A DNA stretch of 64,000 nucleotides from Acidobacteriota bacterium. GTDB lineage: Bacteria; Acidobacteriota; Terriglobia; Bryobacterales; Bryobacteraceae. The position numbers and the translations under genes were made by a program. The stretch covers positions 72,122 to 136,121 of the forward strand of contig JAPKZB010000002.1 in the NCBI GenBank assembly GCA_026393985.1, read 5' to 3'. This document shows positions 8,223 to 31,524 of the stretch, in pieces (position 1 is the first letter of the stretch; every line of letters starts with the position of its first letter). A model generated the notes under the pieces. The model was not told where the DNA came from, did not search any database, and saw nothing but the letters and a program-made list of their open reading frames with translations.

Positions 8223-9368
8223 TTATGGCGCCTGGTAGACGCGCTGCCCGCTGATCCAGGTCTCTTCGACCTGAATCCGGCCGTTGGTCATCGAGAAGAC
8301 GACAAAGTCGGCGCGTTCGCCGGGGGTTAAGCCGCGCTGGCGGCCGCTGATGCGTCCGACGCGGGCCGGGTTGCGGGTTGCCATCGTGACGGCCTCACCG
8401 AGGGTGACGCCGGTCATCCTTATCAGGTTTTCCACACCGCGGTGCATCTTGAGGGCGCTCCCCGCCAGGCGGGTCTGGCCGGCGAGAACAACGCGGTCGT
8501 CCGGGGTGAGGTCTACCCACTGGTCGGCCAACTGGTAGCGGCCGGGGGCGGCGCCGGCCGGGGCGCTGGCGTCGGTCACCAGAATCGACCGTTCGACGCC
8601 TTTGGCGCGGAGGGCGACGCGGAGGAACGCTTCGCCAATATGGATGCCGTCGCCGATGAGGCTGGCCGCGAGGCGGTCTTCGGCCAACTGCTCCCAGAGG
8701 TAGTTTGGATGACGGGGCAGGACGCTGTGGGAGCCGTTGCCGAGGTGCGTCGACAGGGTGGCGCCGGCGGCGACGGCGTCCTGAATCTGCTGGCGATTGG
8801 CGCCCGTGTGGCCGAGGGCGACGACGACGCCTTCGCGGACCAGGGCCTCGATGTAGGCAGGGGCCGCGGGCCATTCGGGTGAGATGGTAACCAACTTCAC
8901 TAAACCACCCGTAACCTCTTGCCAGCCTTTGTATTCTTCGATGTCGGGCGGGCGGACGCAGGCGAGCGGATGGGCGCCGCGCGGCCCTTCTTCGGCGGAG
9001 ATATGGGGGCCTTCGACGTGGAAACCTTCGATGGCGATGCCTTCGGGCAGGGCTTGTTTGGCGGCGTAAAGATTGGCCAGGGAGCCGCGCATGCCTTCGA
9101 CGGTGCCGGTGATGACGGTGGGCAGCAGGCGGGTGACGCCGCAGGCGAACTGGGCGCGCAGGCTGCGGGCGATGTCTTCGCGGCGGGTGGCGGGGGAGTT
9201 GTAGTCGACTCCGTCGTAGCCGTTCACCTGGAGGTCGATGAAGCCGGGGACGACGTAGTCGAGTTCGCCGACCGTGGGGTCGAGGAGTTCGGTGACGCCG
9301 GTGATGAGAGCGCCGAAGTCGACGATGACGCGTTCGTGGCGGACGGGGTCCAAGCCGATAATTCTCAT
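8223..9368 (-). CDS. nagA: N-acetylglucosamine-6-phosphate deacetylase
   Basis: A 381-residue amidohydrolase that removes acetate from GlcNAc-6-phosphate, feeding amino-sugar use and cell-wall recycling. PGFIDLQVNG (residues 41-50) has the NagA-type Q-x-N in place of the H-x-H of other amidohydrolases. The metal ligand Glu119 lies in HVEGPH, His187 in ALGHTGA and His208 in STHLGNGSH; the catalytic Asp is in LVTDASA. The usual THLFNAM sequence is THLGNGS here, a mild deviation. Length is normal for the family. It is the first gene of a minus-strand run with the dioxygenase and WD40 genes. No nagB or PTS gene is in the window. Confidence 0.85.
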   Translation of the reverse strand: MRIIGLDPVRHERVIVDFGALITGVTELLDPTVGELDYVVPGFIDLQVNGYDGVDYNSPATRREDIARSLRAQFACGVTRLLPTVITGTVEGMRGSLANLYAAKQALPEGIAIEGFHVEGPHISAEEGPRGAHPLACVRPPDIEEYKGWQEVTGGLVKLVTISPEWPAAPAYIEALVREGVVVALGHTGANRQQIQDAVAAGATLSTHLGNGSHSVLPRHPNYLWEQLAEDRLAASLIGDGIHIGEAFLRVALRAKGVERSILVTDASAPAGAAPGRYQLADQWVDLTPDDRVVLAGQTRLAGSALKMHRGVENLIRMTGVTLGEAVTMATRNPARVGRISGRQRGLTPGERADFVVFSMTNGRIQVEETWISGQRVYQAP

Positions 9369-9480
9369 GGATTTAAAACAATTCCTTGTAGTTTTGTTTT
9401 ATGCACAGCATCTTCACAGTGTTGCCGGCGTAACTGATTGATTTCAGGGAGTTAAAAACTTGTGGATCGGACTTATTTTT

Positions 9481-9634
9481 TTGTGGCGCACGGAGCACGG
9501 TCCTGGTACAACAATAGGGTACCGCGGGTGCAAGTGCACGAGGCTAATCTCGGGGGAGGTGGCCGGAGCGCATGGCCTGCGGTACACTCCGAAAGGAAAA
9601 GGGCGTCTGGTATATCAGACGCCCTTTTGTTTTG
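9481..9634 (+). ncRNA. Candidate structured small RNA with intrinsic terminator
   Basis: A 7-bp perfect stem, GTACCGC (9519-9525) with GCGGTAC (9579-9585), encloses three short hairpins: GTGC-AAGT-GCAC (9528-9539), GAG-GCTAAT-CTC (9540-9551) and GGCC-loop-GGCC (9561-9577). A strong terminator follows at 9597-9628. The layout is cloverleaf-like but lacks a T-loop sequence, a 7-nt anticodon loop and CCA, so it is not a tRNA. The 5' boundary is not visible and no clear promoter was found. The strand is chosen because the U-rich tract after the terminator is better on the plus strand. Confidence 0.35.
9597..9634. terminator. Bidirectional intrinsic terminator
   Basis: GGGCGTCTG (9601-9609) and CAGACGCCC (9616-9624) form a perfect 9-bp stem with a 6-nt loop. 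It is extended by AAAA/TTTT, with TTTTGTTTTG on the plus side and TTTTCCTTT on the minus side. It can end ilvE on the minus strand, whose stop is 40 nt upstream of it, and the candidate RNA on the plus strand. Confidence 0.85.
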
Positions 9635-9673
9635 TATCATTTTGTGTCAGGCGGTTGTGTCAGGCGGTGGGGA

Positions 9674-10600
9674 TTACTTCCGCACCGGGGTGAGCCAGCC
9701 TTCGGTGTCCGGCGTTTCGCCATTGATGACACTGAAAAACTCTTTCTGCAGTTTGCCGGTGATGGGGCCGCGGCTGCCGGAGCCGATGGAGATGCGGTCG
9801 ACCGAGCGGATGGGGCTGACCTCAGCGGCGGTTCCGGTGAAGAAGACCTCGTCGGCGATGTAGAGGGCTTCGCGGGGGATGGGGGTTTCGATGATTTCGA
9901 TGCCCATGCGTTTGGCGAGGAAGATGATGGTGGCGCGGGTGATGCCGGGCAGGGCGCTGTTGCCGAGCGGCGGGGTGGTGATTTTGCCGTCGCGGACGAC
10001 GAAGATGTTCTCGCCTGAGCCTTCCGAGATGTAGCCGTTGGTGTCGAGGGCGATGCCTTCGGCAAAGCCGTTGTAGTGGGCTTCCATCCGGATCAGTTGT
10101 GAGTTCATGTAATTGGCGCCGGCCTTGGCGAGGGCGGGCAGGGTGTTGGGCGCGATGCGGTTCCAACTGGAGATACAGACATCGACGCCCTGGGCGAGGG
10201 CTTCGGCGCCGAGGTACTGGCCCCAGGACCAGCAGGCCAGATAGAGGTCGTTGGGGTTGTTGATGCCGAGCACGCCGAGTTCGTAGTAGCCGCGCAGGAG
10301 AATGGGGCGGACGTAGCAGGCCTCGAGTTTGTTGACGCGAATGAGGTCCAGCACGGCTTCGCACATCTGGTCGATGGTGAAATCGACCTTATCCATCCGG
10401 TAGATCTTGGCCGAATCCATGAGCCGGCGCATGTGATCCCGCAGCCGGAACACTTGCGGACCGGCGGGGGTGTTGTAGCAGCGGATGCCTTCAAACACCG
10501 AACTGCCGTAGCTGACGACGTGACTCAGAACGTGAATCTTCGCGTCGTCCCAATCAATGAACTTTCCGTTACACCAAATCTTCTCTGTGGGCGTCAACAT
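9674..10600 (-). CDS. ilvE: Branched-chain amino acid aminotransferase
   Basis: A 308-residue PLP class IV aminotransferase for the last step of Leu, Ile and Val synthesis or the first of their breakdown. The Schiff-base lysine is K159 in ALAKAGANY, the same position as in the E. coli enzyme. FEGIRCY (37-43), the RGYYELG loop and SEGSGENIF are diagnostic. Length is typical. It is monocistronic: a perfect TATAAT lies 6 nt before the ATG on the minus strand, implying a leaderless mRNA, and a terminator lies just past the stop. Confidence 0.95.
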   Translation of the reverse strand: MLTPTEKIWCNGKFIDWDDAKIHVLSHVVSYGSSVFEGIRCYNTPAGPQVFRLRDHMRRLMDSAKIYRMDKVDFTIDQMCEAVLDLIRVNKLEACYVRPILLRGYYELGVLGINNPNDLYLACWSWGQYLGAEALAQGVDVCISSWNRIAPNTLPALAKAGANYMNSQLIRMEAHYNGFAEGIALDTNGYISEGSGENIFVVRDGKITTPPLGNSALPGITRATIIFLAKRMGIEIIETPIPREALYIADEVFFTGTAAEVSPIRSVDRISIGSGSRGPITGKLQKEFFSVINGETPDTEGWLTPVRK

Positions 10601-10691: not shown

Positions 10692-12071
10692 ATGATCCTT
10701 CGCCGTCTAATTCCGCAACTGGTGCTGAGCGCCACGCTTCTGTTCGCGCAGAAGCAGAAAGTGGTGAAGCCCGGCTTCAACCTGTTCTCGATGGAGCAGG
10801 ATGTTCAACTGGGCCGGGAGGCCGCCGCGCAGATTGAGCGGGAGATGCAGATCGTCAATAACCCGCGTCTGACGGGTTTGATTGACCGGATCGGGCGGAA
10901 GTTGATGGCGGCGAACGCAGCCGATGGTAAGAACGGGCAGTTTCCGTTCACCTTTAAAGTGGTGAACGATCCCTCGATTAACGCCTTCGCGCTGCCCGGC
11001 GGCCCGATGTTTATTCAGACGGGGTTAATTGCGGCGGCCGATAACGAGGGCCAGGTGGCCGGGGTGATGGGCCACGAGATGGCGCATGTGATTTTGCGGC
11101 ATGGCACGAACCAGGCATCCAAGGCCAACCTGATTCAACTGCCGCTAGCCGTGGCCGGCGGGATGGTGGGGGACAACAGCATGCTGGGTACGCTGGCGCA
11201 GCTCGGTATCGGGCTCGGGGCCAACTCCGTATTGATGAAGTTTTCACGGAATGCCGAGTCGGACGCCGATCTGCTGGGGGCGCGGTTGCTGCACGCCGCC
11301 GGATACAATCCTGTGGAGTTGGCCCGCTTTTTTGAGAAGTTGGAGGCCGAGTCCGGCAAGGGGAATGCGCTGACTCAGTTTTTCGCTTCGCACCCCAATC
11401 CGGGGAACCGCGTGAAGAACATTCAGGCCGACATGCAGTTTTATCCGCGCGCCAATTACCAACCAGACGCGCCTTCGGCCGACTTCCTGGCGGCCAAGGC
11501 GGAGGCCAAGGCGCTGCCGGCGCCACCCAAGCGGCCGCAGCAGAGTGGTACGGCACCGGCACCGCAGAACGGTGGGCCGAGTCCGGATACGGCGGCGCCG
11601 CGCGGATTTAGGGTGCAACGCACTCCTTTGTACGCGATGGCGTATCCGGAAGACTGGCAGAGCCAGTTGGCGCAGGACCAGGTTTCGCTGACACTGGCGG
11701 CGGCCGATGGGCTGGTGCGTGGGCAGAACGGTCAGAACGATGTGGGGCACGGGGTGCTGGTGGCGATCAACCAGGTCCGGAGCCAGAACCTCGATCAGGA
11801 GACCGACGCGCTGGTGCGGGGCTTGCTCCAGGGCAACCCGGGCGTGCGGCAGACGGGCAACGCGCAGCGCATTCGCGTGAGCGGGCAGGCGGCGCTGCTG
11901 ACGCCGCTCGAAGGACGGAGCGGCTTGAAGCGGGGGGAGAAAGAGATCATCCGGGTGTTGACGGTGATGCATTCGCGCGGCCTGTTCCACGCGGTTTTGG
12001 TGGCGCCGGAGAGCCGTTGGCGGATCGCCGAGGGCGAGTACGACGAGATGATCCGCAGCATCCGGTTCTAG
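10692..12071 (+). CDS. M48 family metalloprotease (BepA/Loi-like)
   Basis: A 459-residue periplasmic zinc protease. The signal peptide (residues 1-19, ending LLFAQ) is followed by the M48 domain with HEMAH at 128-132 and the third ligand Glu188 in NAESDADLLG. INAFALPGGPMFIQTGL is the classic substrate-cleft segment of the BepA/YfgC group, which acts in outer-membrane protein quality control. After the protease domain (about residue 270) there is a Pro/Ala/Gln-rich linker and a C-terminal globular region of about 150 residues that I do not recognise; there are no TPR repeats. The next gene starts 2 nt after its stop, so they are likely co-transcribed. Confidence 0.85.
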   Translation: MILRRLIPQLVLSATLLFAQKQKVVKPGFNLFSMEQDVQLGREAAAQIEREMQIVNNPRLTGLIDRIGRKLMAANAADGKNGQFPFTFKVVNDPSINAFALPGGPMFIQTGLIAAADNEGQVAGVMGHEMAHVILRHGTNQASKANLIQLPLAVAGGMVGDNSMLGTLAQLGIGLGANSVLMKFSRNAESDADLLGARLLHAAGYNPVELARFFEKLEAESGKGNALTQFFASHPNPGNRVKNIQADMQFYPRANYQPDAPSADFLAAKAEAKALPAPPKRPQQSGTAPAPQNGGPSPDTAAPRGFRVQRTPLYAMAYPEDWQSQLAQDQVSLTLAAADGLVRGQNGQNDVGHGVLVAINQVRSQNLDQETDALVRGLLQGNPGVRQTGNAQRIRVSGQAALLTPLEGRSGLKRGEKEIIRVLTVMHSRGLFHAVLVAPESRWRIAEGEYDEMIRSIRF

Positions 12072-17068: not shown

Positions 17069-17914
17069 ATGCGCCACATTCTATTCCCTGTCGATTTTTC
17101 CGCGCCCTGCGAGAACCTGGTTCCGGCCGTTGTGGCGTGGGCCCAGCGCTACGAGGCTGACCTGACGCTGCTGCATGTGCATGAGTTGCCGGTCGTAGCA
17201 ATCGAGCAGCCGAACGTGGCATCCGAACTGGAGTTCTTGCGGGAGGCGGCGCAGCAGAGGTTGGATGCGTTTCTGCCGGATGCGTTTGGCGGATTACCGG
17301 TGCGGCGGGTGCAGGTGGACGGGCGGGCCGGTTCGGCCATTGTCGACTATGCGGCGGCCAACGGGATGGACCTGATTATGATGCCGACGCACGGGTATAC
17401 GCGGTTCCGGCAGATGCTGCTGGGATCGGTGGTGGCGAGCGTGCTGCACGATAGCGAAGTGCCGGTGTGGACGAGCGCGCATGCCGATACGGCGTTGGCG
17501 GCGCCGGCGCCAAAGCATGTGTTGTGCGCGATCGATTGTGGCCCGCAGACGCGGCACGTGCTCGAGGCGGCGGTGGCGGTGGCCAAGCGGTTCGGAGCGC
17601 CGCTGCGGATTGTGTATTCGCATCCGGCGCTGGACACGCGGTTTCCGAGCGCGACGGCCGAGCGGGCGCACCGGTTGGTGCACGAGGAGGCATTAGCGGC
17701 GTATCAGGCGGTGGCGGCCGAGTTGGATCTGCCGGAGTACCTGGAGGTGCTTGAGGAGCCGACGCTGGTGGCGGGGGTGTTGGGGGCGATTGCGACGCAC
17801 CAGGCGGACCTGCTGGTGATTGGGCGGGGCCGGATTCAGGGAGTGATGGGCCGGTTGCGGACCAATGCGCATGATCTGATCCGGATGTCGCCGTGTCCGG
17901 TGTTGAGCGTTTAG
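17069..17914 (+). CDS. Universal stress protein, two UspA domains
   Basis: A 281-residue cytoplasmic protein with two tandem UspA domains. Domain 1 (1-140) begins HILFPVDFS and ends with an ATP-loop of the type THGYTRFRQMLLGSVVASVL. Domain 2 (about 148-281) begins KHVLCAIDCG and ends GRGRIQGVMGRLRTNAHDLIRMSPCPVLSV, where the G-x2-G-x9-G(S/T) pattern is degenerate (the last serine is replaced by N), so one domain may not bind ATP normally. Members act in stress survival. It is divergent from pair A and overlaps the convergent MgtC-like gene by 4 nt. Confidence 0.9.
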   Translation: MRHILFPVDFSAPCENLVPAVVAWAQRYEADLTLLHVHELPVVAIEQPNVASELEFLREAAQQRLDAFLPDAFGGLPVRRVQVDGRAGSAIVDYAAANGMDLIMMPTHGYTRFRQMLLGSVVASVLHDSEVPVWTSAHADTALAAPAPKHVLCAIDCGPQTRHVLEAAVAVAKRFGAPLRIVYSHPALDTRFPSATAERAHRLVHEEALAAYQAVAAELDLPEYLEVLEEPTLVAGVLGAIATHQADLLVIGRGRIQGVMGRLRTNAHDLIRMSPCPVLSV

Positions 17915-19198: not shown

Positions 19199-19714
19199 AT
19201 GACTCGATCTGGCGCAATTACAATGCGCGGCAACCCCAAAGATTTGTATGGACCGGAGTTGAAAGCTGGCGATACGGCGCCGGATTTTTCGGCGGTCGAT
19301 GCGACGATGAAGGCGATTACGCTGGCGGATACGGCTGGTTCGGTGCGCATCTTTTCCGTTGTGCCATCGCTCGACACGCCGGTGTGCGATATGCAGACCA
19401 AGCGGTTCAACGATGCGGCTTCGACGTTGCCAAACGTGAAATTTTACACCATTTCGATGGACTTGCCGTTTGCAATGAAGCGGTGGTGCGGCGCGATGGG
19501 CGTCGATAACCTGGTGATGATCTCCGACCACCGGAACGCTTCGTTCGGGGAGGCGTACGGGACGCTGATTCCCGAGTTACGGATTGAGTGCCGGGCGATT
19601 TTTGTGATTGACGCCGGGAATACGATCCGTTACGCGGAGTACGTCCGGGAGGTGGCGGATCATCCGGATTACGAGGCAACGCTGGCGGTGGCGCGGGAGC
19701 TGGCGGGGGAATAG
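19199..19714 (+). CDS. tpx: Thiol peroxidase
   Basis: A 171-residue atypical 2-Cys peroxiredoxin that reduces hydrogen peroxide and alkyl hydroperoxides using thioredoxin. The peroxidatic Cys63 lies in PSLDTPVCDMQT and the resolving Cys97 in RWCGAMG, 34 residues apart as in E. coli Tpx. I chose the ATG at 19199 because it gives the standard length and lies 6 nt after a TATATT box; a longer frame overlaps the divergent membrane protein gene. Position 62 before the Cys is V (PVCD, GVC in E. coli), which is normal variation. Confidence 0.95.
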   Translation: MTRSGAITMRGNPKDLYGPELKAGDTAPDFSAVDATMKAITLADTAGSVRIFSVVPSLDTPVCDMQTKRFNDAASTLPNVKFYTISMDLPFAMKRWCGAMGVDNLVMISDHRNASFGEAYGTLIPELRIECRAIFVIDAGNTIRYAEYVREVADHPDYEATLAVARELAGE

Positions 19715-19748
19715 GCAATCCGTAGGGTGGTATCGCTCTTCCGTTTCT

Positions 19749-19770
19749 GGAATATGGAGACCATATTTCC
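19749..19770. repeat. Inverted repeat downstream of tpx
   Basis: GGAATATGG and CCATATTTCC form a 9-bp stem with one bulged T and a 3-nt loop, 35 nt past the tpx stop. No T-tract follows, so termination is possible but not shown. The rest of 19715-19910 is AT-rich with a weaker CGAGCC/GGCTCG hairpin at 19834-19856. Confidence 0.4.
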
Positions 19771-19887
19771 CCCGTTCGAGAGATTGGCGAATACGTTAAT
19801 TTTTTGATAAATTAGGGGTTTATTGTTTTGCCGCGAGCCTCGGCGTTTTCGGCTCGTCGATTGCAAGAAACTTTTCGGCGTAGTGTC

Positions 19888-19893
19888 TATATT
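19888..19893 (+). promoter_or_regulatory. Histidine kinase -10 box
   Basis: TATATT, 17 nt before the GTG at 19911. It is further upstream than most -10 boxes in this window. Confidence 0.35.
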
Positions 19894-19910
19894 CGAGCAG
19901 ATACCCGGCC

Positions 19911-25217: not shown

Positions 25218-25973
<756 letters not shown>

Positions 25974-25977
<4 letters not shown>

Positions 25978-26789
25978 TGGAGCATGGTGCGGAAGGCGGC
26001 GGCGGCGTCGAGGACGCGCGGGCCGGGGACGACGTAGATGTCGGAGGCGACGGCGAAGACCTTCCGGTTCCGGGCGGCGCGGAGGCCGGGGACGGTGTTC
26101 CAGAGGCGAACGACGGCGGCGGTGTGGGCGGGGGAGACGCCCTGCGTGTCGGTCATGTCGCCCATGTCGACGATGACGTCGGGATTGAGGCGGAGGACGC
26201 CTTCGACGGAGATTTTGGGATAGGCGACGGGGGAATCGGCGAGCACGTTGCGGCCCCCGGCGGCGGCGATGAGGTCGTTCAGATAGGAGCCTTTGCCCAC
26301 GGCCAGCATGCCGTCGAGGCGGCCGGGGGTGCGGCCGACGATGAACAGGAGCGTGGGGGGCGTGGGGCGGATGGCTTGGCGGCGCATGACGTCGAGGCCC
26401 TGCCGCAGCCTGGTTTCGAGGGCGCTGCCTTCGCGGGGGCGGCCGACGGCTTGCCCGATGGCGGTGGCGGAGCGGAGGGTTTCCTCGAGCGTCGTGTTGC
26501 GGAGGGCGAGCGTTGCGATGCCGGCGGCGCGGAGTTGGCGAACGATTTGGGGGTGCTCGGCGTGGACGAGAACGAGGTCCGGGCGGAGGCGGAGGATCGC
26601 CTCCACATTGGGTTCGAGGTAGGTGCCGATGCGGGGGAGGCGGTCGACGGAGGCGGGGTAGTGGCAGTAGGTCGAGACGGCGACGACGCGTTCTCCGGCG
26701 CCGACGGCGTAGAGCATCTCCGTGAAGCTGGGCGCCGTCGAGACGATGCGTTCCGGGATGGCGGCGGCGAGCAGGAGGAGCCAGATCAT
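25974..26789 (-). CDS. btuF: B12-binding periplasmic protein (BtuF-like)
   Basis: A 271-residue substrate-binding protein of the helical-backbone class. A short signal (MIWLLLLAAAIP) leads to RIVSTAPSFTEMLYAVGAGERVVAVSTYC, the typical opening of the BtuF/FepB class, with CHYP matching BtuF-like proteins. RPDLVLV and LNPDVIVD mark the two lobes. ATG 26789 overlaps the receptor stop by 4 nt. Delivers corrinoid to the permease; assignment rests on the riboswitch and operon. Confidence 0.85.
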
Positions 26790-29104
26790 CGGAAGAGTAC
26801 CTGGAGGCCGAACAGGCCGGTGGCGCCGGCGGCGCGGAAGCCATTTTCGTAATAAGTCCGGTTGAGGATCTGGTCGCCTTTGCCATAGAGGCGCAGCGAG
26901 TAGGCGTCGGTGCGGCGGAGTTCGTGACTTAGGACGATGTCGATTTTGGTGGCGCCGGGGAAGAGAAAGGCCCGGCTGGCGGTACCGGCGAAGAAGGCGT
27001 TGTAGTAGCTGGAGGAGCGGAACAGGTCGACGGTGAGTTCGGTGCGGCGGCCGAGTTGCTGGGTGGCGAGGGCCGTCCAGGAGTGGCGGGGGATGCCGAG
27101 GGCGTCCCAGAGGCCGCGGACGGTGATGTCGCGGTCGGTGTCGGAGTTGATGAACCAGTAGGAGGACCGGAGCATGGTGCCGCGGAGGGGGCGGAGTTCG
27201 ACCGTGGTTTCGAGGCCACGGGAGATGCCGCCGGAGCCGTTGTAGTAGCCGGAGGTGCGGCGGAAGGGGTCCGTGGCGGCGCGGACGATGCTGGCCGAGG
27301 AGTCGAATTGCGTGTTGGACACGGTACGGGTGTAGAAGAGAGTGCCGCTGAGGCGGAGTTTATCGCGGAACAGATATTGATCGAGGCCGCCGTCGAGGGA
27401 GTTGTAGCGATCCGGGGCGAGGCGGGGGTCGCCGTAGGGGCTATAGACAACGCCGCCAAGGGCGGAGCTGAAGAAGAAGCCGGAGCCGTAGCGTTCGTAG
27501 AGGCCGGGGGCGCGGTAGGCGTTGCCGGCGTGGGCGCGGAGTTTGGTGCCGGAGCGGGGGAAGAAGTAGGCCAGGGCGGCGTCGGCGGTCCAGGCGCGGG
27601 GGGCGGTGGCGACGGCGGCGTTCTGGTAGTTGTTGGCGTTGCCGGTGTAGACGAAGACGGGGCGGGAGAGACGGAAGTCCTGGGTGCGGCCGGAGAGGGA
27701 GAGTTGCAGCCGCCGGTTGGCGAAGGCCATCTGGCTGGCGAAATAGAGGGCGTTCGAACGCTGGGCGGCGCTCGTTTCGACGGCGACGCGGGTGGCATTG
27801 GGGACGCGGTTATCGTCGGCGTTGCGGTAGGTTTCGCGTTCGAACTCGTAGCCGCCCGAGAGGGTCCACCAGGGGGCGGGTCGCCAGTTGAGGCGGGCGT
27901 CGGCGGTGTCGATGTTGCCGTCGAAGTCGCTGCGATTGGAGACGGTGGGTTGGAAGCCGGGGCCGGCGGGGCCGTTTTGGAAGTTCCGGGTGGTGTGGAG
28001 GCGTTGGAAGCTGGCCTGGAGATCGAGGGTGGGGGCGAGGAGGTGGCGGAAGATGAGGGCGGTGCTTGAGAAGCGGCCGGAGCGGCGGCTGTCCGGATCG
28101 TCGCGGCCGGGGAGGTAGGTGCGGCCGGGAATGGCCGGGATGATGCCGGCGGCGGGCCAGTTGGCGGTGGGGATGCCGCTGGTGGTGGGGCTCGCATTGG
28201 TGAGGACGAAGTCGTCGGAGAGCCAGAGGCGGCCGGAGAGGGAGGTGGCCGAGGAGAGGGCGTAGCGGACGAAGCCTTGCGCGCCGGAGCTACGCGAGGG
28301 GTCGTTGCCGTCGATGCCGTGGCGGACGTTGAGATGGAGCAGGCCGGCGCTGTAGGCGAGTTTCTTCCAGGCGCCGGCGGCGTTCGCGCGGGCACGCAAG
28401 AGACCGAGGCCGCCGCCTTCGACGAGGATGCCGCCGTGGGCGGGCCCGCCGCCGGAGTCGGAGACGAGGTTGATGGTGCTGCCGGCCGCGTTGGTGCCAT
28501 AGAGCGAAGAGCCGGAGCCGCGGAGAACTTCGACGCGGCTCAGGTTGATGAGATTGAGATTGCCGATGAAGCCGCTGGCGTCGGCCTGGATGGCGGCGAC
28601 GTCGCGGAAGCGGAGCCCGTCGATGAGGACGGCGGTGGCTTCGGCGCGGAGGCCGCGGGAGCGGATGGTGGTGAGTTGGCCGGGGCCGCCGAGGTTGCGG
28701 ATGAGCAGGCCGGGGACATCGCGGAGAGCTTCGGCGACGTTGTTTTCGTTACGGCGGGCGAGGCCGTCGGCGTCGAGGAGGCTAGAAGACTTGGCGGCTT
28801 CGTCGAGGGTTTGGGCGACGCCTTCGGCGGTGACGACGATGCTTTGGTCGACGCCTGCGACTTCCAGGCGGATGACCTGGTTGGTTTCCACTTCCCGCGA
28901 GACGCGGCGGAAGCCCGCGGCGGTGACCTCGATGAGGGCGCGGCCGGAGGTATTTGCAAAGGTGAAGCGACCGGCCTTTGTCCGGGTGCGCTCAACGGTG
29001 TTACCGCGGTAGAGCAGCACTTGCGCACCATCTACCGGCTGGCCCTGGGGATCTTCGACGATCCCGTCGAGGGCAGCAAAACACAATAAGAAAAGGGAGA
29101 TCAT
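26786..29104 (-). CDS. btuB: TonB-dependent receptor for cobalamin (BtuB-like)
   Basis: A 772-residue outer-membrane receptor. A signal peptide (FLLCFAALDG) is followed by a carboxypeptidase-regulatory-like beta domain (about 20-95), then the plug (ITVTAEGV-like TonB region, ALRDVPGLLIRNLGG, IRSRGLRAEATAVLIDGLRFRD, VEVLRGSGSSLYGTNAAGSTIN), then a 22-strand-type barrel ending in a terminal aromatic (LFGLQVLFR). I chose the ATG at 29104, which has AGGAG four bases upstream; an upstream ATG lies inside the regulatory hairpin. Regulated by the riboswitch directly upstream. First gene of the B12 uptake operon. Confidence 0.9.
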   Translation of the reverse strand: MISLFLLCFAALDGIVEDPQGQPVDGAQVLLYRGNTVERTRTKAGRFTFANTSGRALIEVTAAGFRRVSREVETNQVIRLEVAGVDQSIVVTAEGVAQTLDEAAKSSSLLDADGLARRNENNVAEALRDVPGLLIRNLGGPGQLTTIRSRGLRAEATAVLIDGLRFRDVAAIQADASGFIGNLNLINLSRVEVLRGSGSSLYGTNAAGSTINLVSDSGGGPAHGGILVEGGGLGLLRARANAAGAWKKLAYSAGLLHLNVRHGIDGNDPSRSSGAQGFVRYALSSATSLSGRLWLSDDFVLTNASPTTSGIPTANWPAAGIIPAIPGRTYLPGRDDPDSRRSGRFSSTALIFRHLLAPTLDLQASFQRLHTTRNFQNGPAGPGFQPTVSNRSDFDGNIDTADARLNWRPAPWWTLSGGYEFERETYRNADDNRVPNATRVAVETSAAQRSNALYFASQMAFANRRLQLSLSGRTQDFRLSRPVFVYTGNANNYQNAAVATAPRAWTADAALAYFFPRSGTKLRAHAGNAYRAPGLYERYGSGFFFSSALGGVVYSPYGDPRLAPDRYNSLDGGLDQYLFRDKLRLSGTLFYTRTVSNTQFDSSASIVRAATDPFRRTSGYYNGSGGISRGLETTVELRPLRGTMLRSSYWFINSDTDRDITVRGLWDALGIPRHSWTALATQQLGRRTELTVDLFRSSSYYNAFFAGTASRAFLFPGATKIDIVLSHELRRTDAYSLRLYGKGDQILNRTYYENGFRAAGATGLFGLQVLFR

Positions 29105-29108
29105 TCCG

Positions 29109-29129
29109 CTCCTGCCCTCCCGCGAGGGC
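29109..29129 (-). promoter_or_regulatory. RBS and adjoining hairpin of the B12 riboswitch
   Basis: GCCCTC-GCGG-GAGGGC (minus strand, 29129-29114) forms a 6-bp hairpin ending directly at the AGGAG ribosome-binding site (29113-29109). Its loop GCGG can pair with CCGC in the aptamer's L5 region, the kissing contact known for class I cobalamin riboswitches, so ligand binding would stabilise it and block the RBS. A second hairpin, TCAGCCA/TGGCTGA, lies at 29139-29156. The mechanism is inferred. Confidence 0.55.
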
Positions 29130-29156
29130 ATCGTGAATTCAGCCAGGGTTGGCTGA

Positions 29157-29332
29157 TCCGGGCAGGTCTTCGGACTTCAGGGCGGCGTTGCCTACCGGCG
29201 GCTACTTCCCAACCCGAGTTCGCGAGTCAGTGTGTCGATGCCGCTTTCGTTCCCTGTTACCGCTGCGGGGCAGTCCTGGAGTTACACCAGGTTCCCTTTT
29301 AATCTCCCGCTCGGGAGCGGGAGAACCTCGGA
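29157..29332 (-). promoter_or_regulatory. Cobalamin (adenosylcobalamin) riboswitch
   Basis: On the minus strand the conserved blocks occur in order: AAAAGGGAAC, CTGGTG-TAA-CTCCAGGACTG, CCCCGCAGCGGTAA, then after a variable stem GGGAAGTAGCC, and the closing GAAGTCCGAAGACCTGCC. The P1 stem can form from TCCGAGGT (29332-29325) with ACCT and CGGA (29167-29157). It regulates the downstream btuB-F-D-C operon, normally switching it off when B12 is plentiful. The 5' part of the aptamer overlaps the last codons and the stop of the YfhO gene. Confidence 0.95.
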
Positions 29333-31524
29333 CTTAGTGAGAATAGCACGGCGGCCAAGGAGGCGAGGGCGAGCAGGGCGGCGCCGGTGAGAACGGAGCG
29401 AGGGCGATAGACGAACTGGATGGTGTGCGCATCGGCGGGAGCGACGACGCCCCGGACGAGCGTGTAGGCTTCGTAGATGGTAGCCGGCTGGCCGTCGACG
29501 GTGGCCGACCAGCCGGGGGCGTAGGTATCGGCGAGGATGACCATGCCGCGGCAGGCCATGTTCACGTCGAGGACGACGCGGCCGGGCGTGTGGCTGCGGA
29601 CGGTAACCTGGTCGGGATTGGCGCAGGCCTCGAGCGCGGGCGGATCGACGTCGAGAAAGGTTTTGCGGGCCATTTCGGGTTCGAGCTGGCTGAGATGGTC
29701 CGAAGCGCCGCGGCGGTCGGCGATGCGAAACGCTTCGTGGACGGAGAAGGCGCGGGGGAGGACGTCGGGGTTGGCGTAGACCTTGAGGCCGGAGCCGCTG
29801 GTGAAGACCTCCTGCTTGTGAAGCTCCGTGGGCTGGGAACCGACGGCGAAGGCGACGCCGAGCAGGCGCCTGGCGGCCGGGGTGTGGAGGGCGTGCTGGC
29901 GGACGTTGAGCGGCATGCTGGCCAGGTAGCCGCCGTCCTGGGGTACGCCGTGCCAGTCGCCGAAGTTGTAGGGGATGAGTTTATCGTCCACGACCACGCG
30001 GCGATGGCCGGGCTGTTGGCGGAGGAATCGGGCGATGTCGTCGTGGGAGCGGAGCGAACTGAGCAAGCCCAGGGCGGGGGTGTTGGAGCGGTGGGTGAAA
30101 AAGGAGGTGCCGCCGTTGCTGATTTCGACGATGGCGAGCAGGAGGGCGCCCGTGCAGAGCCCGGGCCAGGTGATGTTGCGAGATTGCCAGGCGTAGAGGA
30201 GGAGGCCGAGGAGCAGGGCCGTGAGGGCGATCATGAAGTCGTTGTCGTCGGCGCGCTGTTCGAAGGTTTTTGCTTTGGCGAGGCCGAGGCGGAGCAGGAA
30301 GACGACGGCGCCGAAGGTGAGGGCGGCGTGGCGGAGGCGGGGCGTCCACGGGCTGTCGGGATGGTCGCGGAGGCGGTCGAGCCCGAGGGCGGCGAGCATG
30401 GCGGCGCCGCAGGAGAACAGGACGATGGCCATGGAGGGGCTGCGGGCCTTGTCGACTTCGGGCAGAAGGCTATAGAGGATGCCGTGGAGGGCGGTGTAGC
30501 CGGAGAGGGAGTAGAACAGGCCGCCGAGGGCGACGGCGGCCATGGCGCGGGCGGGCCAGTGGGGCCAGGCGAGGGCGAGGCCGGCGAGGGCCAGGGTGAA
30601 GATCGTGATGCCCAGAAAGGGATCGGAGTGGACAAACAGGCCGGGAAAGAGGATGCCGAGCAGGGAAGAGGGCTGGAGGCCGTACTCGCTCAGGACGTTA
30701 TAGGGGACTTTCTGGCTCCAGGTGAGGGGCTCAGGGGCGCCCACCCAGCGAATGGCCTGGCGGCCGTACTCCATGGCGGGAAGGATCTGCAGGGCGCCGG
30801 CGGCTCCAGCCATGGTCCAGAACACGCCGCAGGGAACGGCGAGACGGCGGTTCCGCGCGAGCATCCAGGCCCAGAGGCCGGCGGCGGCGAGGGAGAGAAA
30901 GATGGGAATCTGATGATGGCCGCTGAGCCAGGCGAGGCCGAGGGCGAAGCCGCCGAGGGCGGCCGGGCGGAGGGGCTGGGCGGCGCGGGCGGCGCGGAGC
31001 AGGCTGAGCAGGACAAGGGGAATCCAGGTGGCGCCGTTGAACATCTGCGGCCAGTCCAGGCGGCCGAGCAGGCCGGTGAACGGGAAGGCGACGCCGCCGA
31101 GGAGGGCGGCCCAGCGCCGGCAGCCGAGTTCGCGGGCGAGGCGGTAAGCGAACACCGCCATCAGCAGGTGCGTGAGGACGTAATACCAGTGGAGGACCTT
31201 CGTGCTGAGGTAGCCGTCGCGGAGCGGCATCAGGAATAAAAGCCAGTTGAGCGGGTAGGCGGCGCCGGGCTGGGCCTGGCCAATCAGAGACTGGCCGCCG
31301 TAGTGGTAAGGATCCCAGAGCGCGATGCGGCCGGCCTGCCATTCACGGGCCTGGAACTGCAGCCAGGGGAGAACCTGGTTGACATTATCCTGGCCGCCGA
31401 GCCAGGTGAACTGATCGGTGAGGATGAGTTTCCAGTAGACGCCAAAGAGGACAGCGACCAGAAGCAGGGCCGCGGCGCGGCGGCTGAGGTCCGGCTGATC
31501 GAGGGGGGCGGGCTTCTCGCTCAT
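29299..31524 (-). CDS. YfhO-family membrane protein
   Basis: A 741-residue protein with about 12 membrane segments and a C-terminal extracytoplasmic beta domain. The first loop (LGGQDNVNQVLPWLQFQAREW...WDPYHYGGQSLIGQAQPG) is the characteristic YfhO motif; the end (VILADTYAPGWSATVDG, then TIYEAYTLVRGVVAP) matches the family's beta domain. YfhO proteins are GT-C-type glycosyltransferases implicated in lipid or polymer glycosylation in Gram-positives. I use ATG 31524; a TTG three bases earlier is possible. It follows the M20 gene by 21 nt. Its stop codon is the start of the B12 aptamer. Confidence 0.8.
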   Translation of the reverse strand: MSEKPAPLDQPDLSRRAAALLLVAVLFGVYWKLILTDQFTWLGGQDNVNQVLPWLQFQAREWQAGRIALWDPYHYGGQSLIGQAQPGAAYPLNWLLFLMPLRDGYLSTKVLHWYYVLTHLLMAVFAYRLARELGCRRWAALLGGVAFPFTGLLGRLDWPQMFNGATWIPLVLLSLLRAARAAQPLRPAALGGFALGLAWLSGHHQIPIFLSLAAAGLWAWMLARNRRLAVPCGVFWTMAGAAGALQILPAMEYGRQAIRWVGAPEPLTWSQKVPYNVLSEYGLQPSSLLGILFPGLFVHSDPFLGITIFTLALAGLALAWPHWPARAMAAVALGGLFYSLSGYTALHGILYSLLPEVDKARSPSMAIVLFSCGAAMLAALGLDRLRDHPDSPWTPRLRHAALTFGAVVFLLRLGLAKAKTFEQRADDNDFMIALTALLLGLLLYAWQSRNITWPGLCTGALLLAIVEISNGGTSFFTHRSNTPALGLLSSLRSHDDIARFLRQQPGHRRVVVDDKLIPYNFGDWHGVPQDGGYLASMPLNVRQHALHTPAARRLLGVAFAVGSQPTELHKQEVFTSGSGLKVYANPDVLPRAFSVHEAFRIADRRGASDHLSQLEPEMARKTFLDVDPPALEACANPDQVTVRSHTPGRVVLDVNMACRGMVILADTYAPGWSATVDGQPATIYEAYTLVRGVVAPADAHTIQFVYRPRSVLTGAALLALASLAAVLFSLSPRFSRSRAGD
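29304..29323. repeat. Perfect inverted repeat inside the riboswitch 5' arm
   Basis: CTCCCGCTC and GAGCGGGAG pair over 9 bp around a 2-base centre. It lies in the last codons of the YfhO gene and between P1 and the AAAAGGGAAC block, so it is probably an optional aptamer stem. No T-tract follows on either strand. Confidence 0.7.
29340..29345 (-). promoter_or_regulatory. Possible riboswitch promoter -10 inside yfhO
   Basis: TATTCT on the minus strand ends 7 nt before the first base of P1 (29332), where a transcript would start. It lies inside the YfhO coding region. No -35 box is evident. Confidence 0.35.

Follow-up and report, generated by a model that had tools for sequence, protein, structure and literature searches.

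One of the intergenic regions within the window (the whole 64,000-nucleotide stretch of Acidobacteriota DNA analysed here) appears to harbor a single-copy gene whose product would be a small noncoding RNA specific to a family of the Bryobacterales; this RNA would be expressed from its own promoter, divergent from a nagA-like gene, would fold into one long stem-loop and would act in trans through the tip of that stem-loop; taken as a whole, this reading is given a probability of roughly 70%. The initial annotation of this DNA had proposed a structured RNA whose plus-strand transcript would be independent, and comparative evidence--that is, covariation, distribution, strand bias and promoter sequence--now speaks for such an RNA. 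It had also named beforehand the lack of compensatory change and of conservation in relatives as telling against the proposal; both were found in relatives, an outcome that favours the RNA. The features of the locus are collected in Table 1.

Table 1. Predicted and annotated features of the RNA locus, in window coordinates.
Feature	Position	Strand	Basis and remarks
NagA-like amidohydrolase gene, divergent neighbour	8223-9368	-	TIGR00221 (nagA), 210.8 bits; Amidohydro_1
Divergent intergenic region, RNA promoter to nagA-like start codon	9369-9480		Intergenic regions of 59 loci, column statistics of 62; A-rich stretches are conserved, as is a box pair adjoining nagA
DnaA-box-like 9-mer TTATGCACA	9399-9407	+	Sole TTATNCACA of the window; similar boxes at the same place beside nagA in many relatives
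-35-like element GTGGCG	9483-9488	+	CTGGC in many relatives; column counts, 62 loci
Extended -10 element TGGTACAAC (promoter core TGGTACAA, 9504-9511)	9504-9512	+	TGnTAnAA in 62 non-redundant loci
RNA hairpin: variable stem of ~22 bp, near-invariant tip	9519-9585	+	Minimum-energy fold, match to model R1 (9521-9583), covariation
Tip hairpin AUCUC-GGGG-GAGGU	9547-9560	+	Pairs conserved over 70 sequences; CUCGGGGGAG core kept in five diverged copies
GGCC 3' of the tip	9561-9564	+	Its CC pairs with GG across a small internal loop
Intrinsic terminator	9597-9634	+	13-bp stem (9597-9609/9616-9628), loop GTATAT, then U-rich tail
Branched-chain aminotransferase gene ilvE, convergent neighbour	9674-10600	-	TIGR01122, 416 bits, above the cut-off of 245.55

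The RNA lies in the gap 9369-9673, between a nagA-like gene and ilvE, both of which are on the minus strand, as had been stated. (The former falls formally short of NagA identity, its TIGR00221 score lying below the cut-off of 225.65 bits.) This gap had been described as the only large gene-free one; other internal gaps of more than 200 bases occur, however, at 17684-17910, 19532-19910 and 25647-25973, as delimited by a crude gene caller that may have missed genes in some of them, and these were covered by the Rfam scan described below. The segment 9481-9640 folds at -74.6 kcal/mol, whereas 200 dinucleotide shuffles average -53.8 (sd 3.8) and none folds as well (z = -5.45); the minimum-energy fold of 9519-9585 is a single long stem-loop. 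The perfect 7-bp stem reported earlier (9519-9525/9579-9585; GTACCGC/GCGGTAC) is indeed present, as the base of this long hairpin; likewise present is the perfect terminator hairpin with its U-rich tail, the 9 bp given for its stem being the G+C-rich part of the actual 13 bp. What does not hold up is the further suggestion of three enclosed hairpins in a cloverleaf-like layout, since the relatives support the long hairpin instead: among 15 members of the genus, the three small hairpins (as far as these can be reconstructed) have 69.8% of their cells paired and no changes on both sides of a pair, versus 89.8% of cells paired and double changes in 6 of 26 pairs for the long hairpin.

The comparative evidence for the stem rests on the alignments termed A2, A4 and A5. 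Twelve seed sequences were picked for a shared stem register (a choice that helps the percentage paired) and were aligned by sequence only; here 18 of 27 pairs are changed on both sides and 87.0% of cells are paired (44-49% when slid). For all five measures used, 500 shuffles produced no value as high. A covariance model (R1) built from these seeds and run on 81 sources gave 93 matches at E up to 10, among which are weaker ones to the opposite strand of certain hairpins already matched, as well as a single chance match at another place in the window. A larger alignment, of 73 matches from 73 sources (70 distinct sequences), was obtained by adding 6 loci and omitting 14 of the 81 sources, namely L008, L061 and L072 (partial matches), L020 (no match) and, as near-duplicate or weak copies, L012, L013, L015, L016, L092, L100, L121, L133, L143 and L167. 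In this alignment, which was fitted to the covariance model and thus favours that model's structure, 420 stem cells are changed on both sides yet paired (versus 136, sd 10, in shuffles and 94-108 when slid), 90.0% of cells are paired (versus 66.5% and 39-54%, respectively) and the covariation score is 0.588 (versus 0.171 in shuffles); for each of these values, 0 of 500 shuffles reach it. Double changes affect 21 of the 22 stem pairs, a number that is matched by 41 of 500 shuffles.

Within the genus (15 sequences, aligned by sequence only), the 6 doubly changed pairs are reached by 10 of 500 shuffles and the 22 double-change cells (versus 11.3 in shuffles) by none; the number of pair types in this alignment is not above that of shuffles, 324 of 500 of which reach it. 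On the first sequence-only alignment (A1), RNAalifold recovered the tip only (5 pairs, no covariation), which we think is because MAFFT misaligned the variable stems. By these comparisons, then, the predicted stem is shown to be maintained by compensatory change.

Which strand is under this constraint can be asked of the mismatches that the two strands would read differently. The stem cells contain 205 G-U and 31 A-C combinations, where column composition predicts 191 and 123, in an alignment fitted by a model that accepts G-U. Because the minus strand would swap the two classes, the retention of G-U and avoidance of A-C identify plus as the RNA strand. Independently of any alignment, at 61 of 62 non-redundant loci the hairpin read from the plus strand is stabler than the one read from the minus strand; with a neutral loop in place of the tip, this still holds for 54 of the 62. 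The comparison thus shows structural selection on what would be the plus-strand transcript.

The TGnTAnAA element occurs with all six fixed letters in 45 of the 62 non-redundant loci, with five in 15 and with four in 2 (for T, G, T, A, A and A, respectively, 54, 62, 61, 62, 57 and 57 loci), counts that are partly self-fulfilling, given that the -10 anchor was chosen by its best match to TGnTAnAA. Independent of this anchor is an upstream TGGC that occupies positions -20 to -17 relative to the TG of the -10 element (over the 62 loci, T in 44, G in 42, G in 32 and C in 36). Together these two conserved elements, as far as sequence alone can tell, provide the RNA with a promoter of its own, and the comparison shows the sequence of this putative promoter, of sigma-70 type, to be conserved. 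The -10 element precedes the tip by 42-53 bases, and a transcript would start near 9518-9520.

The genomic context is likewise recurrent. Within 420 bases of the RNA, a divergent nagA-like gene is present in 58 of the 62 non-redundant loci; a convergent ilvE lies within 300 bases in 48; and the distance from the -10 element to the extrapolated nagA start is 126-188 bases in 56 of 59 loci (37, 300 and 1402 in the others). The near-constancy of this distance, along with the proximity of the ilvE end, is what might be expected of a cis element on the minus strand, serving either ilvE, as its 3' UTR or terminator, or the nagA-like gene, as its leader. Such an element is nevertheless very unlikely: the G-U/A-C asymmetry and the greater stability of the plus hairpin place selection on the plus strand; a plus-strand promoter intervenes between the hairpin and nagA; and ilvE is not nearby in 14 of the 62 loci, nor is nagA beside the RNA in 4. 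A cis-regulatory leader or riboswitch on the plus strand was considered and rejected, inasmuch as no same-strand gene lies directly downstream, the next called plus-strand gene being at 10692, beyond both the terminator and the antisense ilvE.

The terminator is clear at the window locus and is the same in the relatives L002, L004, L006 and L007; in L003 and L005 its stem is altered. Counting against the small-RNA reading, a simple scan within 120 bases recognised a U-run or terminator in only 16 of the 62 loci: 8 have a U-run right after the hairpin and 8 a terminator apart from it, whereas 46 have neither. The A-tract of the window's terminator would let it also serve ilvE, on the opposite strand.

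Among the 70 sequences, four of the five tip pairs never vary and the remaining one has two states, A-U (68 sequences) and G-U (2); a U-G wobble lies inside the tip helix in all 70. Members were first gathered by the tip core, so that invariance there is partly by construction, but models R1 and R2 and the diverged copies reach beyond this, and the latter (in genomes G030, G027, G471, G498 and G032) all retain CUCGGGGGAG. Within the adjoining GGCC, the CC, itself part of the search pattern, is invariant in the 62 sequences of alignment A1, and the variants GACC and CGCC occur. Comparison thus shows the predicted CUC-GGGG-GAG tip to be conserved in sequence.

This conservation admits other interpretations. 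One is that the tip is a Shine-Dalgarno decoy, its GGAGGU capturing the 3' end of 16S rRNA: GGGGGAGGUGG, near-invariant in the 70 sequences, holds GGAGGUG, which matches the usual anti-Shine-Dalgarno sequence, CACCUCC. We regard this as quite unlikely, given that G471 and G498 carry GGGGAGAG at this segment, having lost GGAGGU while keeping CUCGGGGGAG intact, and that GGAGGU is half buried in the tip helix (imposed in folding; free folding reached equal energy in 73 of 75 sequences). Another is that the RNA sequesters CsrA/RsmA, in the manner of CsrB and CsrC, which it resembles in its G-rich, GGA-containing tip and in a terminator like that of CsrC (the source of a below-threshold Rfam match confined to the terminator); csrA was found, moreover, in 10 of 12 genomes. 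Yet both genomes in which it was not found, G446 and G051, carry the RNA, and a single tip with its GGA half in a helix differs from the many GGA hairpins of CsrB and CsrC, where several GGA loops would be expected of such a sponge; this interpretation is thus highly improbable.

Searched at the DNA level, 25 of 101 relatives gave matches: 16 of the 19 of the same genus and, weakly, 9 others, of which 8 are centred on one short core and one (G067) lacks it. Exact scanning of genome contigs for the core ATCTCGGGGGAGGTSRCC yielded at least 120 stretches; among the 120 listed, 68 were judged to be members by promoter and stem, 67 of them from Acidobacteriota (Bryobacterales, Bryobacteraceae, Terriglobia and the like) and one from Acidimicrobiia, which is probably misbinned. 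The other 52 listed, some of them judged by organism title and a stem scan, were dropped as chance occurrences; most come from unrelated organisms, but L065, L066, L130 and L136 are bacterial or acidobacterial, though lacking the promoter and stem.

Searches with the covariance models, by contrast, are not tied to an exact core. At E up to 0.01, R1 has exactly one match per genome in 153 of the 200 genomes from the family; these include 111 of the 141 of good quality and represent 62 of 76 genera. A model rebuilt from 73 sequences (R2) was run at E up to 0.1 on 250 genomes drawn from the class and matched 48 of 54 family genomes (46 of them at E up to 0.01, with G463 and G474 at 0.04-0.05), as against a single, marginal match (E 0.068) in the 196 genomes outside of the family; this 54/196 split assumes that the genome listing, in which 181 unmatched genomes are not itemized, is ordered by kinship. 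Several family genomes missed by the models carry a diverged copy, either upstream of nagA (G030, G471 and G498, missed by R2; 22.3-24.0 bits) or as scored in G027 and G032, missed by R1 (19.7 and 25.0 bits). Upstream of nagA, no copy was seen in G445 or G024, which R2 also missed; G057 retains the promoter and not the tip, G021 has lost the intergenic region, and the contig of G007 ends at the promoter. In G058, the last of the six family genomes missed by R2 at E up to 0.1, nagA is elsewhere, and a weak R2 match (17.9 bits; L296, 3524-3580) lies upstream of it without adjoining it, perhaps as a moved copy. By eye, no such RNA is seen upstream of the nagA relatives of G062, G064 and G068, from another family of the same order, or of G081, G083 and G089, from other families of the class.

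The earlier statement that no known RNA is recognizable here agrees with Rfam 15, which returns only terminator look-alikes and noise: a scan of the whole window finds a cobalamin riboswitch elsewhere and nothing at 9519-9585; within 9369-9673, at E up to 10, there are 11 matches, all far below gathering scores and nearly all to the terminator; and the relatives L070 and L133 give matches below threshold only. (The riboswitch, RF00174 at 29144-29346 on the minus strand with 99.8 bits, lies directly upstream of a minus-strand ORF, 26786-29131, whose 781-residue product is by eye TonB-dependent receptor-like, so that this is probably a vitamin B12 uptake gene.) Nor is the RNA a tRNA, as had also been said: ARAGORN finds 0 tRNA or tmRNA genes in the window. 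The bacterial small SRP RNA is similar in kind, being a short, single-copy stem-loop with a variable stem and a conserved tip; this identity was rejected, however, because the sole RF00169 match of the genome is a separate gene at C52:54794-54891 (74.2 bits) and the tip sequences differ. 6S RNA was likewise set aside, the folds having no large central bubble and the genome no match to RF00013, a model that may miss divergent 6S RNAs, as it matched just 5 of 14 control genomes. GlmY and GlmZ are trans-acting small RNAs of amino-sugar metabolism. Both are named among the small RNAs in PMC9029176; the likeness lies in the amino-sugar link, which is here positional only, by way of the nagA-like neighbour, and they differ in that Rfam gives no match here and the glmS/SIS-domain gene starts show no consistent complementarity.

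Three candidate structured RNAs are tabulated for related organisms in Table 1 of PMC2864571: Acido-1 (RF01686), for Acidobacteria; Acido-Lenti-1 (RF01687), for Acidobacteria and Lentisphaerae; and Solibacter-1, for Solibacter usitatus. The first two have no Rfam match to the RNA described here, even at E up to 10. Solibacter-1, which bears a question mark and no Rfam number in that table, is compared by its listing alone, and the present RNA may correspond to it, as one member (L103) comes from a Candidatus Solibacter usitatus record. Literature searches, at the level of titles and abstract openings, returned no description of this RNA, and a word search of the main texts of PMC11109978 and PMC8632094 gave no occurrence of Solibacter, Acidobacter, nagA, ilvE or Bryobacter. 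Subject to the Solibacter-1 listing, the RNA thus appears to constitute a new family of small structured noncoding RNAs, absent from Rfam 15.

Regarding function, the small-RNA reading favoured here supposes that the RNA is transcribed from its own sigma-70-type promoter; that the stem would lend stability and serve as a scaffold; and that the tip, with its exposed GGGG, would act in trans, either by being bound by an RNA-binding protein or by pairing with C-rich RNA, the RNA thereby functioning as a regulator or a decoy. The partner is slightly more likely to be a protein than an RNA paired through a seed, since conservation extends to both strands of the tip helix and is not confined to one single-stranded seed; these conserved halves, together with the invariant U-G wobble, fit a protein binding the tip, or recognition of its shape, better than they do a simple seed. 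The tip loop, at 4 bases, is also short for a seed, which counts against pairing in trans. Nevertheless, C-rich RNAs may be targets of the tip. In line with the small-RNA reading, an Hfq gene is present in all 12 genomes looked at.

For glmS/SIS-domain gene starts (those of the SIS genes being taken as the start of the match, which in L385 and L395 does not look like a true start), pairing over 26 loci ranks from 1 to 90 of 100 and is not above shuffles. Nor is it for the gene starts of nagA, ilvE and M48, with median shuffle fractions of 0.52 (59 loci), 0.48 (47) and 0.73 (31), respectively; strong scores at the 'ilvE stop' in L043 and L075 are the RNA locus itself, on the other strand. That complementarity to these gene starts does not exceed shuffle level counts against the proposed trans-acting step. 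As to glmS itself, two full-length genes score above cut-off in the genome of the window (G000; C52:139893-141740 and C10:6128-7975), and its genus-mate G017 also has two.

The region between the RNA promoter and nagA has a conserved feature of its own. The DnaA-box-like 9-mer TTATGCACA belongs to a pair of boxes, TTTTATNCACANNNTNNCCACA (up to one mismatch), 11 bp apart and located here at 9395-9420, between the two divergent promoters; such a pair occurs in 58 of 101 family genomes, as against 1 for the reversed control. Of 70 sites listed, and placed by hand comparison with RNA and nagA positions, 54 are at the RNA locus, 15 are elsewhere and one (in G408) is unplaced. The sequence TTATNCACA is rare in sampled genome stretches. 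Perfect tandem pairs away from the RNA locus are seen in G051 (C38:8540), G441 (C49:43232), G399 (C473:2770), G446 (C32:11811), G024 (C2:35246) and G414 (C1:1431686).

These tandem boxes, along with the lack of an exact TTATNCACA in the stretch examined around the dnaA domain of 6 genomes, raise the question of whether the locus acts as DNA, for instance as a replication origin, with the hairpin as a by-product. This is extremely unlikely. The G-U/A-C asymmetry requires an RNA; and, more weakly, the third-position GC skew of G447 keeps its sign across the RNA and turns from negative to positive at dnaA. GC skew from sampled stretches was too noisy to locate an origin; the contiguous skew of G447, which argues weakly against one at the RNA, is patchy and changes sign at dnaA and at other places too, so that, while no change occurs at the RNA, the RNA locus is not called an origin. 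On contig C1 of G447 (1.57-1.97 and 3.77-4.17 Mb), the sign of the skew alternates between blocks tens of kb long, mostly irrespective of gene strand, which gives the impression of a much rearranged chromosome.

A bolder and unlikely elaboration is that the GGGG tip serves specifically to bind some protein or small ligand that is not known to use a hairpin of this kind, and that the RNA is a single-copy global regulator or scaffold whose promoter, shared with nagA, is controlled by the DnaA boxes; if this were true, the state of the cell cycle and the supply of amino sugars, and hence of cell wall, would be coupled through an RNA.

More generally, few RNAs are annotated in Acidobacteria (Table 1 of PMC9029176 gives 4 small RNAs). 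The covariance model, the promoter and the tip provide handles for finding the partner of the RNA by pull-down. Given its single copy in 153 of the 200 genomes examined from a large and little-studied family, and its near-invariant tip, the RNA is probably important to the cells that carry it.
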